DNA of 34,877 nt from NCBI GenBank assembly GCA_023140385.1, contig JAGLLT010000005.1, forward strand, positions 1 through 34,877, given 5' to 3'. Position numbers and translations under genes: made by a program. This stretch comes from Candidatus Omnitrophota bacterium. GTDB lineage: Bacteria; Omnitrophota; Gorgyraeia; JAGLLT01. This document shows positions 25,123-34,877 of this stretch, in pieces; within the stretch, counting starts at the first letter, position 1, and every line of letters begins with the position of its first letter. The notes under the pieces were generated by a model that was given only the letters and a program-made list of their open reading frames with translations, searched no databases and was not told the origin of the DNA.

Positions 25123-27171
25123 TCATTCAATCGCGTGCTGAGTCCAATTCGTCCAGTCTATGCTTTTCTCCCAGTTGGAGTCCTTCATAGGGGTAATAAT
25201 AATATCTATGGGTGCTGAAAAAACATCCCCGCAATTAAAGACGCACTCAAGATTTGTCCCATCGGTAAGTGAAAAGTAACCAACTTTCAGCATATCCCTT
25301 ATATCATTAAAAGTGTACTCATCGGCAATTGCAGCGCCGCTGTTATTAATTACGAAAAAGTCGGCTACCAGATTATGGCTGCCGCTGATACTGATTATAA
25401 AACCGTCGGTAGTCGTGCTGGTTGCCGCGTAACAAGCTGTGATAGTGTTAAACTCAACCGTACCATTAACCTTAAGTTCGTAACCGGATACCTGCTGTCT
25501 CCAATCGGCATCATATACTCTGTCGGCAAAAAACACCGTTTCTTCTATGGAATCATCATTGTGAGCCAGGTCAATTTCCATCTTCGTAGGATAGGCAAGC
25601 TTTGAGTTACTCTCCCCCACCTGATAATAAGTAGTATCAGTACTGGTTATTTTATAGGTTCCGCTATCATCAAAAACATTCAGGTAATCACTCCAGGGGA
25701 GTTCATTTACCTCATCTCCTTCAATATCACGGTTAAAGGTGGTAAGCCAGCTAAGGGTCGTTAGCCCTTCCCTGCTCTGGTTGGAAGCGTCGTTGGTTCT
25801 TAAATTAATATCTAATATCTGGATTTTTTTTGAATTTGGGCGCAAAATATACTGCTCAACCCTCACGCGGTTGCCCTCTCTGTCAGTCATCACCTTGTGC
25901 ATCTGGGCATCGGCGCGCTGGGTAAGACGAGCGTCCATATCGCGCCAGTACATATCGGTAGTATGCTGGGCTATATCATCCCTTAAGCTGCCGATTTCTA
26001 TTAAGTTGAGTATCTTCTGCCTTATCTCATGGCGGGAACCATAGCCTTTTACAGAACTGTCATCGTGAATAACAGCGTCACTTATAAAGGCATCCTCGTT
26101 ATTCCTTATACCGTCGCCGTCAGAGTCGGCGTAGTCATAATAGTCTCTGGGGTATGTATCGGCCGTGTTAAGATATCCGTCGCCGTCAATATCACTGTCA
26201 AATTCGTCATCTATGCCGTCGCCGTCAAGGTCATTACCGGAGGCGCGGCTTGAGTCATTAGGATACAAATCATCACTGTCTAAAACACCGTCGCCGTCCG
26301 AGTCAAGAAGGCTATCCTGTCTTCTTTTCTCGGCGCCCTGGCTATCCTGATCGCTCTCTTTATCGAGCACCGCGTCTTCCTGAGAATCATCCAAATTATC
26401 ACCAATATTATCAGTATCACCGGTTACATTATTGTCGCCTTTAGAAGAAGATCCTTCAGCGGGGGGATTATTGCCCATCATAGTTCCGACTGACTTTTTC
26501 CAACTCTTCCATTTATTTTTTTCCTGAGAGCTCAACTTTCTGTCCGGCCCGACAAAATCACGGCCTATCACTTTTTTAAAGCCCTCCTTGATCACATACT
26601 CATCACCGGACGGCTTTCCATCTTTGCCGGTTTGCTGAAAATAAATGTTGTGCTCAAAGCAGGAAGCCGTTGTAACGGGATTATGCTTAACACTAAAACC
26701 CGTACCCTTTGAACCGCAGATTGCCGTTGGCGTACGGACTTCAAACTTAGAACCCCCTTTAAAGCCCTCCAGGATACAAAACAGCTTTCCTTTGTCAAGC
26801 CCGAACTCTGTCCGCGCCGGTTCTATTTTGTTCATAGTAACAACCGTATCAGCGTCCACTTTTAGTACACCTTTTAAATCAGGTTCATTTTTACAGCTAA
26901 TGAGAAGCTCGGCGTAAGAGTTCTTTTTGCCGGTCTTTAACATATCTCCTTCAGACAACTCTCTGCCAACTTCCGCCGCCCGCCATAATTTTGCGCCATC
27001 CCGCTGAAATAAAACCTTGCCTTTAAGCCGGATGATTATAACTTTTTTATCAGCTGACAACAGTTGTCTTTGAGCTTCCGCGTAAGATAAATTAGTTAAG
27101 CAGACGGTTGTTGCCGAATAGACGGCCAGGGCAATAACAGCCAAAAGGGCTATTCTCTTTACCATGGTCAT
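25123..27171 (-). CDS. Exported FecR-domain protein with type-3 calcium-binding repeats (paralogue 1)
   Basis: 682 residues: signal peptide (1 to about 32, ending YAEA); FecR domain (about 40-190) with GDMLKTGKKNSYAEL, LDKGKLFCILEGFKGGSKFE and VRTPTAICGSKGTGFSV; an acidic Ser/Asn/Asp linker; four or so thrombospondin type-3-like repeats at 290-362 (DSDGDGVLDSDD, DLDGDGIDDEFD, DIDGDGYLN, DSDGDGIRNNED), which bind calcium in known proteins; then an unrecognised C-terminal region of about 320 residues. There is no membrane anchor next to the FecR part, so it is not a classical FecR sigma regulator and is more likely a periplasmic or surface protein. It has its own promoter, and a close paralogue lies just upstream. 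A GAGG ribosome site supports the first ATG. Confidence 0.85.
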   Translation of the reverse strand: MTMVKRIALLAVIALAVYSATTVCLTNLSYAEAQRQLLSADKKVIIIRLKGKVLFQRDGAKLWRAAEVGRELSEGDMLKTGKKNSYAELLISCKNEPDLKGVLKVDADTVVTMNKIEPARTEFGLDKGKLFCILEGFKGGSKFEVRTPTAICGSKGTGFSVKHNPVTTASCFEHNIYFQQTGKDGKPSGDEYVIKEGFKKVIGRDFVGPDRKLSSQEKNKWKSWKKSVGTMMGNNPPAEGSSSKGDNNVTGDTDNIGDNLDDSQEDAVLDKESDQDSQGAEKRRQDSLLDSDGDGVLDSDDLYPNDSSRASGNDLDGDGIDDEFDSDIDGDGYLNTADTYPRDYYDYADSDGDGIRNNEDAFISDAVIHDDSSVKGYGSRHEIRQKILNLIEIGSLRDDIAQHTTDMYWRDMDARLTQRADAQMHKVMTDREGNRVRVEQYILRPNSKKIQILDINLRTNDASNQSREGLTTLSWLTTFNRDIEGDEVNELPWSDYLNVFDDSGTYKITSTDTTYYQVGESNSKLAYPTKMEIDLAHNDDSIEETVFFADRVYDADWRQQVSGYELKVNGTVEFNTITACYAATSTTTDGFIISISGSHNLVADFFVINNSGAAIADEYTFNDIRDMLKVGYFSLTDGTNLECVFNCGDVFSAPIDIIITPMKDSNWEKSIDWTNWTQHAIE

Positions 27172-27223
27172 TTTTATTCCTCGTGTATAACAAAGCCTTA
27201 AAGTAATATATATCTTTTGAGAA

Positions 27224-27252
27224 AGTATACTTGAAATAAGATGTTATGTCAA
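27224..27252 (-). promoter_or_regulatory. Near-consensus promoter of FecR paralogue 1
   Basis: Minus strand TTGACA (27247-27252), 17-base spacer, TATACT (27224-27229), about 53 bases before the ATG. With the terminator just upstream, this shows that paralogue 1 is an independent transcription unit with an expected high basal rate. Confidence 0.75.
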
Positions 27253-27321
27253 GAACATCGCCGTTAAACATGGCTAACCCCCGAGGCTGGCCAAAGGCGG
27301 TTATTCGCGGGATTAAGACAC

Positions 27322-27362
27322 AAAAAAACCCGCACTGCGTATATATAAGTGCGGGTTTTTTT
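27322..27362 (-). terminator. Intrinsic terminator after FecR paralogue 2
   Basis: A perfect 15-base stem, AAAAAAACCCGCACT with its complement at 27348-27362, around an 11-base loop. On the minus strand it ends in a T-run right after the stop of paralogue 2. Flanking A and T runs make it work in both directions, but no plus-strand gene reaches it. Confidence 0.9.
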
Positions 27363-27373
27363 AAATTATACTT

Positions 27374-29626
27374 TTAATCGTTCCACCAATCTGTCCAGAG
27401 TTCGTCGTTAACAGGAACGATAATAATATCTATAGGATTAGTGAATCTCGTGGTAGTGCCATCCGGCAGGCCGGTGAACTCCCACGGATCAGAGGTAACT
27501 GAGCCGCCTGGGCCCCCCACCCTTGTCTGCAGTCTGGTCTGATTATAGCCGTTGGTTACCTGAAGACAACTGAACAAAGCCTCTAAGTTACTCCCGTTTT
27601 CGAGGTCAAAGTAACCTACCCTTAACATATCCTTGAGGCCGGCTATCTCAACGTCACCTCCAACAATATCCCCGCTATTATTTATGGCGAAGAATTTGGC
27701 GAGGAGCGCTTCATTAACGGTTCTTGTCTGTGTGCGCGTCCATATCCAGGGCATCATAGGATTCGGATCCCAATCCGGGTCATCAAGACTGCTGTCAAGA
27801 GCTACAACAAAGTTGCCTGGATTTCCCGCGCTATAAACCAGGGCGTCTTTAAATGCCCCTAAATCATCAAAGATAGGAGTACCGTTTATAGCAAACTCAT
27901 AACCGATTATATCCTGCCAGTAATTAGTAACTACCTTCCTATGGTTCCCAAAATTCGTATATTCATAAATGGAGTCCGCGTTGTGCGTCAGCTCAAGCTT
28001 CATATCATCAGGGTAAGCGCAATTCGGATCTTCACTTGGCACCTGATAATAAGTTGTATCCGAACTGGTTATTCTGAAAGGATCAGCAGAACCGACAACC
28101 GTCAGATAATCCTCCCAGGGTAAAAGTGGTATCTCATCAGAGCTTATATGGCGGTTAAAGGTCATCGCCCAATTCAATGTAGTCAGTCCGCTGTACGGCG
28201 TATCACCCGTTCTCAGGTTAACATTGATTAACTGAATTTTCTTATCAGCCGGGCGAAGCACATACTGCTCAACTCTCACACGGTTGCCATGCTTATCCAT
28301 CATTACCTTGTGCATCTGGGCATCGGCGCGCTGGGTAAGGCGGGCATCCATATCGCGCCAATATATATCCTGAGTATGCTGGGCTATATCGTTTCTGAGT
28401 TCGCCCACTTCTATCAGGTCTAATATTTTCTGCCTTATCTCATGGCGGGAACCGTAACCCCTTACGGAAGTATCCGGATCAATCACCGGATCATTCTTAA
28501 AGGCGTCTTCATTATCTCTTATACCGTCGCCATCTGAGTCAGCGTGGTCATAGTAATCTCTGGGATAGGTATCGGCCGCGTTAAGATAACCGTCACCGTC
28601 AATATCACTGTCAAACTCATCATCTATACCGTCACCGTCAAGGTCATTGCCCGAAGCGCGGTTTGGATCGTTAGGGTATAAATCGTCTTTATCTAAAACA
28701 CCATCGCCGTCTGAGTCCAGCTCTGTACTGACGAGAGTATCTCCTCGAGGCTGATTACCCTGACTATCCTGCTCGCCTTGCTTATCCACATTCGCGTCGT
28801 TATGTGAATCCTTTGACCCTTTATTCAAACCGTCCGCGTCCTTGCCTAAATCGTCGGATGGCTTATCGGGAGGCGGCGTATAAGGGTCTGCTTCAGGGCC
28901 TTCATCACCTGATATATTTTTATTAAAGAAAGAACCTAAGTTTCTTCTCCACGAGTTCCACCTTCTCTTCTGCCACGGGCTGATTTTTCTAATAGGGCTC
29001 GCGTATTCACCTGAACCGATTGTTTTCTTATGCCCTTCATTAACGTTTTGTTTATCACCCGTAGGATTACCGCTGTCATCAAGAGGTTCCATATAAATGC
29101 TGTGTTCAAAACACGAACCGATTGTCTTTGAAGCATGCTTCACGACCCAGCCGGTTCCGCGCGCTCCGCATATGGCAACGGGCGTACGAACTTTAAAGGT
29201 CGAGCCTTTCTTCATCTTTTCGACTATACAGAACAACTCACCTTTATCAAGTTTAACTTCCGTGTCATTCGGCTTTATCTTCTCGAGCTTAATCTGTGTG
29301 CCCGCGTTCACCCTGATTACATTCTTCTTTTTTGATTCCTCGCTATAATTAAAACAAAGTTCGGCGAAAGAACCAACTTTTCCGGTTTTAACACTGTCAC
29401 CGCTCACAAGCTGCATAGCCTGACGCGCCTTTTCCCAGTCAGCCTCACCGCTCTTAAGAACTTTTACATTACCTTTTAAGCGAATAATCGTAGCTTCATT
29501 GCCTGAAAAAGTTATGCTCCTAAGGCCGTCTTCCGCCTCCGCCGGCGAAAAAAACATAATTGACGATAGAAAAGCAAAAGCAACAACCCCTGACAGCACT
29601 CTGCTTACTCTTTCTCTATAATTCAT
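27374..29626 (-). CDS. Exported FecR-domain protein with type-3 calcium-binding repeats (paralogue 2)
   Basis: 750 residues, same order as paralogue 1: signal peptide (1 to about 32, ending PAEAE), FecR domain (about 40-195; SGDSVKTGKVGSFAEL, VRTPVAICGARGTGWVV), a longer acidic linker, type-3 repeats at 304-376, then the same C-terminal domain with GYGSRHEIRQKILDLIEV and YWRDMDARLTQRADAQMHKV almost unchanged. Extra segments include a Trp/Pro-rich insertion around WDPNPMMPWIWTRTQTRT and another near GGPGGSVTSDPWEFTG. The repeat region and the following 100 residues are nearly identical between the two, also in DNA, suggesting recent duplication or gene conversion. It has its own promoter and terminator. 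Function unknown; calcium-stabilised envelope or secreted protein is my inference. Confidence 0.85.
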   Translation of the reverse strand: MNYRERVSRVLSGVVAFAFLSSIMFFSPAEAEDGLRSITFSGNEATIIRLKGNVKVLKSGEADWEKARQAMQLVSGDSVKTGKVGSFAELCFNYSEESKKKNVIRVNAGTQIKLEKIKPNDTEVKLDKGELFCIVEKMKKGSTFKVRTPVAICGARGTGWVVKHASKTIGSCFEHSIYMEPLDDSGNPTGDKQNVNEGHKKTIGSGEYASPIRKISPWQKRRWNSWRRNLGSFFNKNISGDEGPEADPYTPPPDKPSDDLGKDADGLNKGSKDSHNDANVDKQGEQDSQGNQPRGDTLVSTELDSDGDGVLDKDDLYPNDPNRASGNDLDGDGIDDEFDSDIDGDGYLNAADTYPRDYYDHADSDGDGIRDNEDAFKNDPVIDPDTSVRGYGSRHEIRQKILDLIEVGELRNDIAQHTQDIYWRDMDARLTQRADAQMHKVMMDKHGNRVRVEQYVLRPADKKIQLINVNLRTGDTPYSGLTTLNWAMTFNRHISSDEIPLLPWEDYLTVVGSADPFRITSSDTTYYQVPSEDPNCAYPDDMKLELTHNADSIYEYTNFGNHRKVVTNYWQDIIGYEFAINGTPIFDDLGAFKDALVYSAGNPGNFVVALDSSLDDPDWDPNPMMPWIWTRTQTRTVNEALLAKFFAINNSGDIVGGDVEIAGLKDMLRVGYFDLENGSNLEALFSCLQVTNGYNQTRLQTRVGGPGGSVTSDPWEFTGLPDGTTTRFTNPIDIIIVPVNDELWTDWWND

Positions 29627-29660: not shown

Positions 29661-29689
29661 AATATAACAAATTACGCAAAAAAAGTCAA
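29661..29689 (-). promoter_or_regulatory. Promoter of FecR paralogue 2
   Basis: Minus strand TTGACT (29684-29689), 17-base spacer, TATATT (29661-29666), 34 bases before the ATG, with GAGGTGA as ribosome site. The paralogue is thus separately transcribed from the three-gene operon upstream of it. Confidence 0.7.
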
Positions 29690-29730: not shown

Positions 29731-30342
29731 CTAATCTTCCAGATGAACATCGATGTATTGAGACAGTAACTCTCTTACCGTTGCCGGCGGCCTGACAATA
29801 AAATAGTGATTGACAAGGGCATGGCCTATCTCATGAGCCAATATATTTTGATTAACGCGGGACTCAGTTGTATAAATTGTGTTATTTTCATAGACATAAA
29901 AAGAGTATAAGTCAAGCCGCTCACCCATTATTTCTTCATAGGCATCAATAAGCATCTTTGTGCTTTCAAAGAAAACGATATTAACGTGAAAATCCGCCGG
30001 ATACATATCCAGTATCTGCTCAGACCTAAGCAGAATCATATCGCATTTAATGGCTATGCGCTCAAAAACGTCTCCCGCTTCCCTCAATGACCTTTTACCG
30101 CCATAACCAATCTCGATATATTTTATATCCAGCTTCTTATCTATCCTTGCCGGATTTACCATACCCTCAAAGTATAAGGTGCAATAATCAGAACTGACTT
30201 TCAATGAGCTATGACTACCGGCCGTATCCGCCCCGACTATACCCGCCGGTAAAAACGTAAGGCAGAAAAAACAAAAGGTACCGATAAGAAAATTTTTTTT
30301 AAAACTACAGTTTAAAGCAGCCAATTTCTTTATTGATTTCAT
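29731..30342 (-). CDS. Small exported protein with HExxH zinc-peptidase motif
   Basis: A 203-residue protein with a signal peptide (cleavage probably after the hydrophobic FLIGTFCFFCLTFLPAG, near residue 38). LAHEIGHALVNHYF gives the zinc motif H170-E171-x-x-H174, and E191 in TVRELLSQYID is placed like the third ligand of gluzincins. It resembles the tail of the peptidase MA-like fold, but ends only 12 residues after that position, shorter than usual. Its first 38 bases overlap the HAMP gene, and no clear Shine-Dalgarno is seen, so translation coupling is likely. Substrate unknown; an envelope protease acting on neighbours is possible. Confidence 0.7.
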   Translation of the reverse strand: MKSIKKLAALNCSFKKNFLIGTFCFFCLTFLPAGIVGADTAGSHSSLKVSSDYCTLYFEGMVNPARIDKKLDIKYIEIGYGGKRSLREAGDVFERIAIKCDMILLRSEQILDMYPADFHVNIVFFESTKMLIDAYEEIMGERLDLYSFYVYENNTIYTTESRVNQNILAHEIGHALVNHYFIVRPPATVRELLSQYIDVHLED

Positions 30343-30889
30343 TTATCGTCTTTTTTATATTAGCTGTATTGTTTTTTTCCCGCGCCGCTTCCGCGTTATC
30401 AGCAAAGCTATTCAGCTCTGAGGCCATGTTTTTTATCTTCAGAACATGCTGGTTTAGCTTTTTTATCATATCGTTTAATTCATCCGCGATTGGCCGCAAC
30501 TGGTCTCCTGAACGCAGTCTGACCTCCAGGCTAAGATTGCCGTTACCTACAGCCTCAACAGCTTTTTCAAGATGGTAAGCGGGGCCGGCTATTTTATGGG
30601 AAATAAAGAGGGTTACCACAATCATAAATACACCCACAATAATGATTGTAGCAATAGAAGTGAGCGTTATTAGTGGCAAAAGGTAATCAGCGGTACTTTT
30701 AATGATAAGTCTTGAATTCTCAAAAGAGGTCGTTGTGGATTTAAGTGAAAGGAAATAAATCAACCCTCCAAACAAAACACAAGCAAGGATAACAAGAAGA
30801 CAAAACCTGATGATAAACCGGCTTTGAAATTTCTTATTAATATAGTAGTTCCTTCTCCTGTACGGTTTATTGACTTTTTGTCCTTTCAT
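30305..30889 (-). CDS. HAMP-domain membrane protein without output domain
   Basis: A 194-residue inner-membrane protein: basic N-terminus (YRRRNYYINKKFQSRF), TM1 about 25-47, a short extracytoplasmic loop of about 24 residues, TM2 about 72-96, HAMP domain about 97-150 (SHKIAGPAYHLEKAVEAVG, SGDQLRPIADELNDMIKKL), then a short helical tail. It looks like the membrane half of a chemoreceptor or histidine kinase, but no signalling domain follows and no frame shift was found that would restore one. I use the ATG at 30889 because GGAGG is 5 bases ahead; a GTG one codon earlier is less well spaced. It lies between the SurA-like lipoprotein and the peptidase-like gene. Confidence 0.85.
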   Translation of the reverse strand: MKGQKVNKPYRRRNYYINKKFQSRFIIRFCLLVILACVLFGGLIYFLSLKSTTTSFENSRLIIKSTADYLLPLITLTSIATIIIVGVFMIVVTLFISHKIAGPAYHLEKAVEAVGNGNLSLEVRLRSGDQLRPIADELNDMIKKLNQHVLKIKNMASELNSFADNAEAAREKNNTANIKKTINEINKEIGCFKL

Positions 30890-30923
30890 CACTTCCTCCG
30901 CGTTTTGTAAAAATCAGCGCGAC

Positions 30924-31496
30924 TTAATCAAGCGCTATGCTTTTTAAGGTTTCCTCATTTATAGAAATATAGGCTTTCTCTTTTAAGTTATCTATCCACG
31001 CGCGCATAAGCCCTGTTTCTTTTTCACGGCGCAAAAAACGTCTCAGCCGGCTTTTAATCTCTAAAAGCGGCTTAATCTCAGGATCCTCTGTTTTCAACTT
31101 GTTATAATAATCGGATATCTCATCATCGTAGATGTAAACGCTGTCTGAAATCTCGCGTGACTTTTTTTCGATTAGAGTTATCAAAAGTGTTTGTTTCCAG
31201 TAATTCTCAATTGTTTTCCTGAATCGCTCTTCCTTGTCAAGATTAAGCGACTGCGCCTCCTGAAGCAAAATCTCTTTTTCAATCAAGTCGTTGAGAAGTT
31301 CCATTCGGCCGCTAAAATCCTTAACGGTATCAGGCCGGTAGATAGAAAGCGCCTTTAAGTCCTGCCTGAGATCTTCTTCGCTCATATAATACGCGTTAAT
31401 CTGGGCAACCACTTTCTTTTCTTCTTCTTTTTTAGTACAACCAAAGCTAAGAAATACAAAACTACATAAAATAATAACAGTACAGCCTTTTAACAT
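30924..31496 (-). CDS. Lipoprotein with SurA-N-like chaperone region
   Basis: A 190-residue exported lipoprotein: the signal ends in the lipobox LSFGC (C20), followed by a Lys/Glu linker and a helical domain. VVAQINAYYMSEEDLRQDL and MELLNDLIEKEILLQEAQSLNL match the SurA/PpiD N-terminal chaperone pattern, but there is no parvulin isomerase domain. It may hold unfolded outer-membrane or secreted proteins. The start is the ATG at 31496: AGGAGG lies 6 bases before it, whereas a TTG one codon earlier is too close. It leads a three-gene operon from a strong promoter, divergent from a beta-barrel gene that could be its client. Confidence 0.8.
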   Translation of the reverse strand: MLKGCTVIILCSFVFLSFGCTKKEEEKKVVAQINAYYMSEEDLRQDLKALSIYRPDTVKDFSGRMELLNDLIEKEILLQEAQSLNLDKEERFRKTIENYWKQTLLITLIEKKSREISDSVYIYDDEISDYYNKLKTEDPEIKPLLEIKSRLRRFLRREKETGLMRAWIDNLKEKAYISINEETLKSIALD

Positions 31497-31578
31497 CAAT
31501 TTCCTCCTGATATACGCGTATGAAAATAGATTGCAACCGTTACAAAAAAGTCTGAGCCTTTAAAGCTTTTATAATAAT

Positions 31579-31688: not shown

Positions 31689-33005
31689 ATGATTAGGATG
31701 GGGCATAAAAATTATTTGTTGTTTTTTGTCTTACTAATAGTAATGGCTGCGCCTGCCGGGCTTTATGCCAAAGATGACGGCCTTACCGGCGAGGACACAG
31801 CTCCAAAGGCGGACGAGAAAACAAGCTTAAGATTTTTCGGAAAAAAAGTTATACCCATCATCAATTTGGACGCTTTGGGCACTTACTCCAAAATTCAGGG
31901 CTACAATGCCACTGAGGGAGCGCTTATTGACCTGCTTGTCTCACCCGCGATTAAAATAAATGATAATTATTATCTTATTCCCCTTTACAATTTTAATTAC
32001 AATCGCTCGCGCCAGATTATCGCTGAAGATGAAGGCGGCCATCTGATACAGGAAACTCTAATTCATAACGCCTATTTTACGAATAAATTACAACTAACGG
32101 ATAATCTGGTAAATAAAATCAGCATTTTTGGCAGTTGGGCTTATTACAAAGAGACCGCGGATGAAAAATGGTCAGAGGGCCTTTATGATTATACTGATGT
32201 TGGCGCCATAGTGGACTTCGAATATGTCTTAGGCAATCCAAAAGATAAAATTTATAAAGAAGCCGGGCTGGAATTCGAATATTATAAGCGCCAGTATTCT
32301 AATTTTCAGTCACTTATATCCCTTGCCCTACCCACAGCGCCTGAAACGGATGAAAAAGACTTTGACGGCTACAAAGCAACTCTTTCCTATCTGAGAGATA
32401 ACCCTGACGGCCTCTCCTTTGAAGCCTCATACCAGCCATTATTAAAGTACTATACCGATAAATTAATCATCGGATCGGATGGTGTTCTGGAATCAGGAAG
32501 CAAGAGAGAAGATAACCAGCACGCTTTTAATCTCAGTTTCAGTTATCCGGTGAGCAAAAGGCTGAAGGTATCGCTGGATAATGAGTTAGTTATAAATCGC
32601 AGTAATCAGAACTTTTATGACTCGATGGATACCGTAATATTATCAGACGATGGGTATATGCCGAACTACTATGATTACAATTCCTTCAGAATAAAGCCAA
32701 AAATCAGTTACGACATAGCCGTTAAAGAAGATAAAGACTTAACCGTCCAGTTGTCTTACGCCTATCTCGATAAGCGTTATACTGACCGCAAAGCTCAAAG
32801 TTCCGCCGGCCCGTATACGGGAAGCGATGAAGAGGATGAATTCCATACTTTCAGCCTGGGGCTTTCTTATCCGTTAACTGAGGCAATAAAAGCCGTAGCC
32901 ATATTTGATTACACCATCGCTCAATCCAATATGGAATACGAGAAGTACTACAGATACAACTACGACCTGATGAGTATAGCCTGCGGCATTTCCTGCCGCT
33001 TCTAA
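31689..33005 (+). CDS. Outer-membrane beta-barrel protein
   Basis: 438 residues with a signal peptide (about 1-27, ending GLYA), then alternating aromatic/polar strands rich in Tyr, such as YYLIPLYNFNYNRS, LSYLRDNPDGLSFEASYQP and FRIKPKISYDIAV, and a C-terminal Phe (ACGISCRF), the signature recognised by the Bam machinery. About 16-18 strands can be imagined. No enzyme motif is seen; a porin-like or surface-display barrel are the options. It is alone in its transcript, bounded by a strong promoter and a 21-base-stem terminator, and diverges from the SurA-like lipoprotein operon. Confidence 0.85.
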   Translation: MIRMGHKNYLLFFVLLIVMAAPAGLYAKDDGLTGEDTAPKADEKTSLRFFGKKVIPIINLDALGTYSKIQGYNATEGALIDLLVSPAIKINDNYYLIPLYNFNYNRSRQIIAEDEGGHLIQETLIHNAYFTNKLQLTDNLVNKISIFGSWAYYKETADEKWSEGLYDYTDVGAIVDFEYVLGNPKDKIYKEAGLEFEYYKRQYSNFQSLISLALPTAPETDEKDFDGYKATLSYLRDNPDGLSFEASYQPLLKYYTDKLIIGSDGVLESGSKREDNQHAFNLSFSYPVSKRLKVSLDNELVINRSNQNFYDSMDTVILSDDGYMPNYYDYNSFRIKPKISYDIAVKEDKDLTVQLSYAYLDKRYTDRKAQSSAGPYTGSDEEDEFHTFSLGLSYPLTEAIKAVAIFDYTIAQSNMEYEKYYRYNYDLMSIACGISCRF

Positions 33006-33068: not shown

Positions 33069-33109
33069 AAGGGGTCAAGTTAAAAGTTTGACCCCTTACT
33101 TGACCCCTT
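33069..33109. repeat. REP-like hairpin plus extra half-copy, related to the RAYT ends
   Basis: AAGGGGTCAA (33069-33078) and its complement (33088-33097) form a hairpin with a 9-base loop; a third TTGACCCCTT follows at 33100-33109. The loop and right arm match the RAYT left end with a few bases deleted, so it looks like a shortened mobile copy of that end. It lies after the terminator and before the stop of the membrane protein gene. Confidence 0.8.
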
Positions 33110-33115
33110 ACTTAC

Positions 33116-33826: not shown

Positions 33827-33853
33827 AAGGGGTCAAGTCTTAACTTTTAACTT
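33827..33853. repeat. Left terminal inverted repeat of RAYT unit
   Basis: Twenty-seven bases beginning AAGGGGTCAAG that match the complement of 34851-34877 at 26 of 27 positions (the outer 21 are identical). The transposase stop codon (TGA, 33833-33835) lies inside it. Confidence 0.92.
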
Positions 33854-34816
33854 AAGCATCTTTACCATTTCTCTAAAATCCTGATAACACCCTTCTTTCT
33901 TTTTGATTTCCTCTGCTGCCAAACGAAATTGTTTTGAAAGCGCCGCGTATGATATCCCGCCCAGCACGGTGCATATATCACGACACGGTATATATAGATA
34001 TTGTCTGCATATATATGCTGCGGCTTTTCTTTTTAGAATGTATTTTTTGTTTTTCTTTCGCGCAAAAATACCTTTTTCTCCGATTTTGTTCTCAAGCGTC
34101 CTTATTGCATCGTTGGCTGAGATAGCTCTCATGCTCTCTTTATATTGCGGAATTTCTCTTTTTTCTATTCTCTTACCCCGCAGATTCTCTCGTATAGCAG
34201 CTTTAAATGCTTCTCCTCCAAGAATTGCCGGCCATTTAATCCCGTTTAGTATCGTAGATAATTCTTTCAGTGTTTCCTCTTTGACAAATGCGTCTAATTG
34301 CCGCATGGCTTCTTTTTCAAATTCGCTAAATTGCATTAAAACGTCTTTTGTTTTTAGCCATTGCGGACGCCTGCTTATCTTCATGTATGCAGAGTGGCTT
34401 GTCCACTCATGCTGGCCTATTTTTTCCTCAAGCTTTGCTCTATAAGGATTTCTGTGTATGTAGCGGATTAGCTCACTTAAATAGCTTTCTTTTTCTATTA
34501 GTATCGATTTAAACCGTCCCTTAAAAAGGCTTCCTTCGTTGTTATATTTTCTGTTTATTTTCTGAGTATAAACACCATTTAGGTGCCTCATACCTCGCGA
34601 TAGGTTGCCGTTAGGGGTACGTATAAGCAGGTGGTAGTGGTTTGGAATTAGCGAATAAGCGTGGATTTCGATATTAAATAATTCGGTACATTCTTCCAAT
34701 ATCTTCAAAAATAGTTTGTAGTCGCTATCGAAGAAAAATATGTTTTCCCGCCTTCTTCCGCGATTTAACACATGATACCATGCGCCGGGATATTCAATTC
34801 TTAATGGTCTTGCCAT
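33833..34816 (-). CDS. REP-associated tyrosine transposase (Y1/HUH family)
   Basis: A 327-residue HUH single-strand DNA transposase. The N-terminal Y1 domain (about 5-125) shows ARPLRIEYPGAWYHVLNRG, the metal-binding H60-Y-H62 in LIPNHYHLLIRT, and YLSELIRYIHRNPYRA with the candidate nucleophile among Y112 and Y119. The C-terminal part (about 240-325) ends with a helix-turn-helix-like YIPCRDICTVLGGISYAALSKQF similar to DnaA-type DNA-binding tails found on long RAYTs. All key residues are present, so it looks intact. The protein would nick and join REP hairpins. No Shine-Dalgarno; the promoter is so near that the mRNA may be leaderless. Confidence 0.93.
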   Translation of the reverse strand: MARPLRIEYPGAWYHVLNRGRRRENIFFFDSDYKLFLKILEECTELFNIEIHAYSLIPNHYHLLIRTPNGNLSRGMRHLNGVYTQKINRKYNNEGSLFKGRFKSILIEKESYLSELIRYIHRNPYRAKLEEKIGQHEWTSHSAYMKISRRPQWLKTKDVLMQFSEFEKEAMRQLDAFVKEETLKELSTILNGIKWPAILGGEAFKAAIRENLRGKRIEKREIPQYKESMRAISANDAIRTLENKIGEKGIFARKKNKKYILKRKAAAYICRQYLYIPCRDICTVLGGISYAALSKQFRLAAEEIKKKEGCYQDFREMVKMLKLKVKT

Positions 34817-34824
34817 AATTTTCT

Positions 34825-34852
34825 ATTATACACAATGCTGAAATATCGTCAA
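34825..34852 (-). promoter_or_regulatory. Transposase promoter overlapping the right repeat
   Basis: Minus strand TTGACG (34847-34852), 16-base spacer, TATAAT (34825-34830). Only 8 bases separate the -10 from the ATG at 34816, implying a leader of zero to two bases. The -35 overlaps the repeat by two bases, so transposase bound at the repeat could repress its own gene. Confidence 0.65.
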
Positions 34853-34877
34853 GTTCAAAGTTAAGACTTGACCCCTT
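34851..34877. repeat. Right terminal inverted repeat of RAYT unit
   Basis: The 27-base partner of 33827-33853. GTCAAGT (34848-34854) and ACTTGAC (34866-34872) also pair within it to make a 7-base stem with an 11-base loop, the kind of hairpin recognised by Y1 transposases. The window stops at its last base. Confidence 0.9.

Follow-up and report, generated by a model that had tools for sequence, protein, structure and literature searches.

In Burkholderiales, a gene for a LysM-FecR protein forms an operon with a CHASE2 kinase gene, so that an unanchored FecR protein and a CHASE2 receptor are a known pairing (PMC5192318). A related connection exists in Sinorhizobium, where the periplasmic FecR protein SMc02177 is among the targets of Clr, a cAMP regulator into which the CHASE2 cyclase CyaD1 feeds (PMC5498481). 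In Leptospira, Lsa33 has been reported to be a surface-exposed, laminin-binding protein (PMC3444417). A literature search for FecR together with Omnitrophota, a phylum of which hardly any member has been cultured, or for FecR together with thrombospondin type 3 found nothing.

Here, we describe a tandem pair of FecR genes from an Omnitrophota genome. The window that we analysed is the whole stretch of 34,877 nucleotides at the start of contig JAGLLT010000005.1 (assembly GCA_023140385.1). Overall, the family to which these genes belong appears to be part of a conserved cell-envelope module, probably one that serves signalling.

Architecture of the tandem genes

The two genes, referred to below as P1 and P2, are both located on the minus strand, P2 being the upstream and P1 the downstream gene. 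CTD stands for their C-terminal domain, and G000 for the window's own genome bin. The features of the pair are as follows:

25123-27171, minus strand: P1, open reading frame of 682 aa with signal peptide, FecR domain, acidic linker, TSP3-type repeats and CTD
26653-26868, minus strand: Pfam-matched part of the P1 FecR domain (PF04773)
26086-26310, minus strand: TSP3-type repeats of P1, five D-x-D-x-D-G motifs, residues 290-349
25144-26040, minus strand: P1 CTD, conserved across 21 aligned members, without library match
25897-26304, minus strand: candidate old conversion tract, P1 residues ~290-425, more like P2 than like the P1 orthologue
27374-29626, minus strand: P2, open reading frame of 750 aa, aligned with P1 and built like it, apart from insertions in the CTD
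29123-29323, minus strand: P2 FecR domain (PF04773, E=3e-8)
28499-28723, minus strand: TSP3-type repeats of P2, five D-x-D-x-D-G motifs, residues 304-363
27383-28453, minus strand: P2 CTD
27224-27252, minus strand: P1 promoter-like site, TTGACA-17-TATACT, 11/12; hexamers and spacing shared with the upstream region of the L025 orthologue
29661-29689, minus strand: P2 promoter-like site, TTGACT-17-TATATT, 10/12, with TG
27325-27359, minus strand: intrinsic terminator of P2, 12-bp stem, -17 kcal/mol, z -4.45

The signal peptide is the sole strongly hydrophobic, TM-like segment in P1 and P2, the remainder of both proteins is predicted to be exported, and neither a membrane anchor nor a cytoplasmic anti-sigma segment was found in them. 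The FecR match of P2 lies above the Pfam cut-off. That of P1 is borderline, with E=4.6e-4 and 21 bits in the protein scan (below the cut-off of 24) and 24.1 bits in the genome search (just above it). Five D-x-[DN]-x-D-G motifs are clear in each protein; the TSP3 profile matched P2 only at E=0.88 and did not match P1. The CTD measures ~300 residues in P1 and ~360 in P2, where alignment with P1 reveals the insertions. An earlier sequence-only reading of this DNA had described two adjacent genes for what it took to be a secreted or surface family, each with an anchor-free FecR domain after the signal peptide, an acidic linker, D-x-D-G-D-G repeats and an unassigned C-terminal domain of about 320 residues, the second paralogue carrying insertions. 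The described features held in our analysis, the assignment of the CTD being considered in the next section, and they support the view that both proteins belong to one family of exported envelope proteins that lack an anchor. For the FecR-CTD proteins, we recognised neither a sorting signal nor a lipobox, and no secretion gene.

Each gene had also been credited with its own promoter, and we found a promoter-like site for both, although such sites overall barely exceed shuffle expectation in number (17 vs 14.5). The hexamers and spacing of the P1 site recur in another genus (L025, genome G003). Since each gene has a promoter-like site and a strong terminator is situated in between, P1 and P2 are probably separate transcription units.

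The genome carries a third FecR-domain gene, L097:3-377 on contig C21, which is cut by the contig edge and lies near large exported proteins, one of them lipase-like. The window itself contains no Rfam match and no tRNA.

A domain family without library match

When alignments of the CTD with 14 and 21 rows were searched against Pfam, NCBIfam and PDB sequences, no match was significant. PDB hits to maltoporin (E=0.012) and to an S-layer protein (E=0.05) were judged to be chance and were gone with the larger alignment; DUF6150, which reached E=0.05 in one member, was rejected as well. An AlphaFold prediction from two sequences had a pLDDT of 32 and yielded no usable structure. The invariant residues of the domain include D57, K62, V63, G69, R73, Y77, F115, W129, P164, D292 and P297 (first-row numbering).

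Family copies do occur in related genomes: the CTD profile matches 20 of the 384 genomes of one Omnitrophota class, and one further match was obtained in another class (genome G385). A scan of genome contigs added nothing more than one fragment from the same genus (L019) and, in other phyla, matches confined to the repeats. In all scanned CTD members with an intact N-terminus, the FecR domain scores above the Pfam cut-off, P1 being the borderline case. What lies between the two domains is variable. Repeats are many in L028 and L032 and few in L027 and L036; they are absent in L031, L033, L035, L067 and L069, which have other, often helix-like sequence instead. The TSP3_bac cut-off is exceeded in L028, L032, L034 and L064. 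Because the spacer varies while the scanned intact members keep FecR, the constants of the family, judged from these sequences, are FecR and CTD, with calcium repeats as one spacer among several. None of the libraries that we searched describes the CTD, and we found no report of its combination with a dedicated barrel of the kind presented below.

Duplication and probable exchange between P1 and P2

The P1/P2 pair is the product of a tandem duplication and bears signs of occasional exchange. The sequence-only reading regarded the repeat region and the following stretch as nearly identical in DNA and attributed this to gene conversion; uniform identity between the genes would have spoken against it. 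Identity is in fact not uniform, being highest in a best stretch of 85-88%, yet near-identity was an overstatement: in 30-codon windows, identity peaks at 88% for the DNA as a whole and at 70% for third positions, and no exact run exceeds 35 nt. Both genes have orthologues in G003, a genome of another genus in the same family. The FecR head of P2 is nearest its G003 orthologue (50% vs 43% for P1-P2), and the CTD of P1 is nearest its own (63% vs 48%). Over P1 residues 301-420, amino-acid identity is 72-93% between P1 and P2 and 68-80% between P1 and its orthologue. Shared amino-acid states within residues 295-425 number 22 for P1 and P2 against the orthologue and 5 for P1 and the orthologue, as against 51 and 87 outside this region, a reversal with Fisher p=3e-5. 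Taken by themselves, third positions give weak evidence, with p=0.016 for a window picked post hoc, and a free scan of third positions for a conversion tract failed to reach significance (375 of 5000 permutations). Such a distribution of shared states suggests that P1 likely contains an old conversion tract over residues ~290-425, although shared constraint on the repeats may be an alternative cause. What stands of the conversion claim is thus an old local event, together with concerted change in relatives; ongoing near-identity does not.

In G003, the gene order is the same as in the window. P1 is full-length there (L025:3541-5613, 55% identity), and P2 is cut to 331 aa without a CTD. This P2 orthologue (L025:2411-3406) is truncated inside the calcium repeats, and the deletion appears to have left the final codons directly behind the repeats, with loss of the whole CTD. 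In G001, of the same genus as the window, a P2-type C-terminus directly abuts P1's downstream sequence; for this reason, P1 must have been either deleted or converted in that genome, whose contig starts too late to separate the two. In G006, which belongs to another family, an upstream copy ends contig L084 and a downstream copy begins contig L026. These apparent tandem copies overlap by ~412 bases of linker with ~90% identity in DNA, including 71 exact bases at the contig edge. Assemblers leave exact overlaps of this kind at contig edges when they meet a repeat; strain mixture is an alternative, because the bin is listed with 7% contamination.

A dedicated outer-membrane barrel

Upstream of P2, the window contains four genes that recur in related genomes:

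29731-30342, minus strand: exported HExxH protein (peptidase-like), weak DUF4344 match; beside FecR-CTD genes in G000, G003, G006 and G038
30305-30892, minus strand: membrane protein of the same synteny group, with a HAMP-like domain (E=7e-5, below cut-off) but without any output domain that we recognised
30924-31499, minus strand: SurA/EpsD-like exported protein, matches below cut-offs; same synteny group
31689-33005, plus strand: outer-membrane beta-barrel, 438 aa, conserved partner gene, recognised by family alignment, linkage and aromatic C-terminus

The product of the first gene has the motif HEIGHALVNHY, of HExxH type, and its synteny is kept in the four genomes.

The barrel family (~430 aa) has ~14 strand-like segments and a C-terminal F or Y in 11/11 members, features on which, together with a signal peptide and the amphipathic character of the strands, we assign it to the outer-membrane barrels. 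Its Pfam matches are only weak; it shows no plug domain and no match to TonB receptors. A single-sequence AlphaFold model had a pLDDT of 31 and gave no usable structure. In all 15 genomes with contigs reaching far enough (G000, G003, G006, G022, G035, G038, G052, G055, G068, G071, G078, G087, G091, G096 and G133), the barrel and a FecR-CTD family gene share one contig and lie on opposite strands. The barrel is directly next to the FecR gene in most genomes, and three genes intervene in G000, G003 and G006. Both convergent and divergent layouts occur; therefore, the linkage has survived rearrangement. The same 384 genomes contain 23 strong barrel matches, of which 19 fall among the 20 CTD genomes (Fisher p=3e-27, phylogeny ignored). 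The one CTD genome without a barrel, G113, is 74% complete. Barrels without a CTD match were found in G001, which has the P2 fragment, in G035, which has a cut FecR-family gene beside the barrel, and in G185 and G335, which are 72% and 68% complete, respectively. No barrel was found in G385, the genome of another class with a CTD protein. Only the barrel is universal at these loci, the SurA-like, HAMP-like and HExxH genes being present in four or five genomes. Taken together, linkage and co-occurrence make it very likely that barrel and FecR-CTD protein are functional partners.

Seven genomes have a further neighbour family near the barrel, with proteins of roughly 420-600 aa (L027:6078-7349, L030:1244-2500, L036:2-1309, L085:4993-6354, L086:5832-7634, L090:5031-6368 and L092:6260-8020); the scanned members have no Pfam match.

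CHASE2 receptors near the loci

Genes for CHASE2 proteins were identified by Pfam in L027, L064, L069 and L083 and, by a profile built from those, in L084 and L031. They encode SpoIIE or GGDEF outputs and lie near the FecR-CTD/barrel loci of G055, G169, G133, G001, G006 and G022; one of these six loci, L083, comes from the genus of the window. In some loci, CHASE2 is several genes distant, and chance may account in part for its closeness. G001 and G006 share the gene order HATPase_c_2, STAS, MlaE, ABC ATPase, MlaD, CHASE2-SpoIIE, three genes, the barrel, the SurA-like gene and the HAMP-like gene, the domains of the G006 order having been scanned in the G001 homologues. G006 continues past the HAMP-like gene with the HExxH protein and the FecR gene. 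HATPase_c_2 and STAS are characteristic of partner-switching systems, whose end point is often the control of a sigma factor. In L083:128-5204 and L084:1675-7104, a partner-switching set stands alongside a Mla-type lipid-transport set in one run.

A search of the genome bin to which the window belongs gave no CHASE2 match. Just past the barrel, on the side where G001 has CHASE2, the window's contig breaks off with the terminal repeat of an IS200-type element. This element comprises an IS200-like (Y1) transposase gene at 33827-34877 on the minus strand, within 37-nt inverted repeats (AAGGGGTCAAG...) that reach the contig end exactly. A related repeat pair at 33069-33112 resembles a small non-coding derivative of it.

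No FecI-type gene or other sigma factor and no TonB receptor plug match was recognised among the neighbours scanned. Hence, the proposal of the sequence-only reading that the family acts outside sigma signalling stands as regards FecI and TonB receptors at these loci, but it is weakened by the CHASE2-SpoIIE genes nearby, accompanied in two genomes by STAS and HATPase_c_2.

Discussion

Export signals, domains, barrel linkage and co-occurrence, and the nearby CHASE2 genes in relatives form the basis of a scenario that we put forward tentatively as the likeliest of those considered, giving it somewhat less than an even chance: the FecR-CTD protein takes the state of the barrel to a CHASE2 receptor. 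The FecR-CTD protein would dock on the periplasmic side of the barrel through one of its domains, and its spacer, presumably stabilised by calcium, would set its reach. It would then hand the state of the barrel to the inner-membrane CHASE2 receptor, and the SpoIIE phosphatase or GGDEF output of this receptor would act in the cytoplasm. In such a scheme, the logic of the FecA-FecR relay would be divided into soluble parts, with no TonB receptor or FecI at the locus. Points against it are the missing CHASE2 match in the window's bin, the distance of CHASE2 from some loci and the CTD protein of G385, which has no barrel to go with it.

A different role is conceivable, if rather doubtful, in which the barrel holds the FecR-CTD protein on the outer face of the cell as part of a structural or adhesive complex, the TSP3 or helical spacer serving as a stalk without any signalling. 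The best NCBIfam matches of the FecR heads, all below cut-off, are Leptospira Lsa33, LipL45 and Lsa19, and Lsa33, whose FecR head is similar, is reported to be surface-exposed and to bind laminin (PMC3444417), which suits a structural role no less than the relay. The spacer of L028 matches Myxococcus CglD and MtsD via its repeats, a varying spacer length suits a stalk, and the barrel linkage fits equally. However, this role leaves the CHASE2 genes in six loci unexplained, and we recognised none of the following: sorting signal, lipobox, secretion gene. It seems improbable that the barrel and the SurA/EpsD-like, HAMP-like and HExxH proteins form an export or assembly set, as an accessory to envelope assembly or glycan export, with the FecR-CTD protein as a periplasmic adaptor. 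Two neighbours do resemble EpsD and EpsL weakly, and Mla genes are present upstream in G001 and G006; yet the EpsD/EpsL matches are far under cut-off, the scanned neighbours include no glycosyltransferase or polymerase, and a set of this kind is hard to reconcile with a barrel that alone is universal.

That the family is a classical FecR anti-sigma/TonB relay which merely lost its anchor is very improbable. The FecR domain is there and the genome does encode one TonB-receptor plug domain, but the latter is found on contig C8, away from the locus and with no adjacent FecR match. Moreover, the linked barrel has neither plug domain nor TonB-receptor match, and the want of a membrane anchor means that P1 and P2 have no cytoplasmic anti-sigma part. 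Classical FecIR signalling was therefore rejected on anchor and genomic context.

If the tentative relay from barrel to CHASE2 receptor is correct, a bolder reading may be considered, which we regard as possible but doubtful: a trans-envelope architecture new for Omnitrophota, running from a plug-less barrel to a soluble FecR-CTD protein, whose new CTD and calcium-set spacer would bridge the periplasm, and on to a CHASE2 receptor driving partner switching or c-di-GMP signalling. There may then be relays of FecR type that lead from the outer membrane to the cytoplasm with neither TonB receptors nor FecI. In any case, an unnamed conserved domain family gains genomic context and a defined partner, and the predicted barrel-FecR contact is directly testable.

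Comparison with known systems

FecA-FecR-FecI signalling shares with the Omnitrophota system the FecR domain and an outer-membrane barrel as the likely upstream partner, whereas the Omnitrophota system lacks a membrane anchor and FecI, and its linked barrel carries no plug domain of TonB receptors. The Leptospira proteins LipL45, Lsa33 and Lsa19 are the nearest curated FecR heads by profile and, likewise, are exported and are not anti-sigma factors. They are, however, lipoproteins without a TSP3 spacer or this CTD, and the Omnitrophota heads fall well short of NCBIfam membership (45.1 bits vs 420 and 34.3 vs 350 for the Lsa33/LipL45 family). With the Myxococcus surface proteins CglD, MtsC and MtsD, the family has in common acidic calcium-type repeats as a spacer, and the likeness is confined to these repeats. 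The Burkholderiales operons of LysM-FecR (COG4254) and CHASE2 histidine kinases (PMC5192318) also place an exported, unanchored FecR protein next to a CHASE2 receptor whose cytoplasmic domains vary. Unlike them, the Omnitrophota family lacks LysM and has a TSP3 or helical spacer, the new CTD, a dedicated barrel and SpoIIE or GGDEF outputs. Overall, exported FecR proteins and the FecR/CHASE2 pairing were already known, and what appears to be new here is the CTD and its combination with a dedicated barrel.
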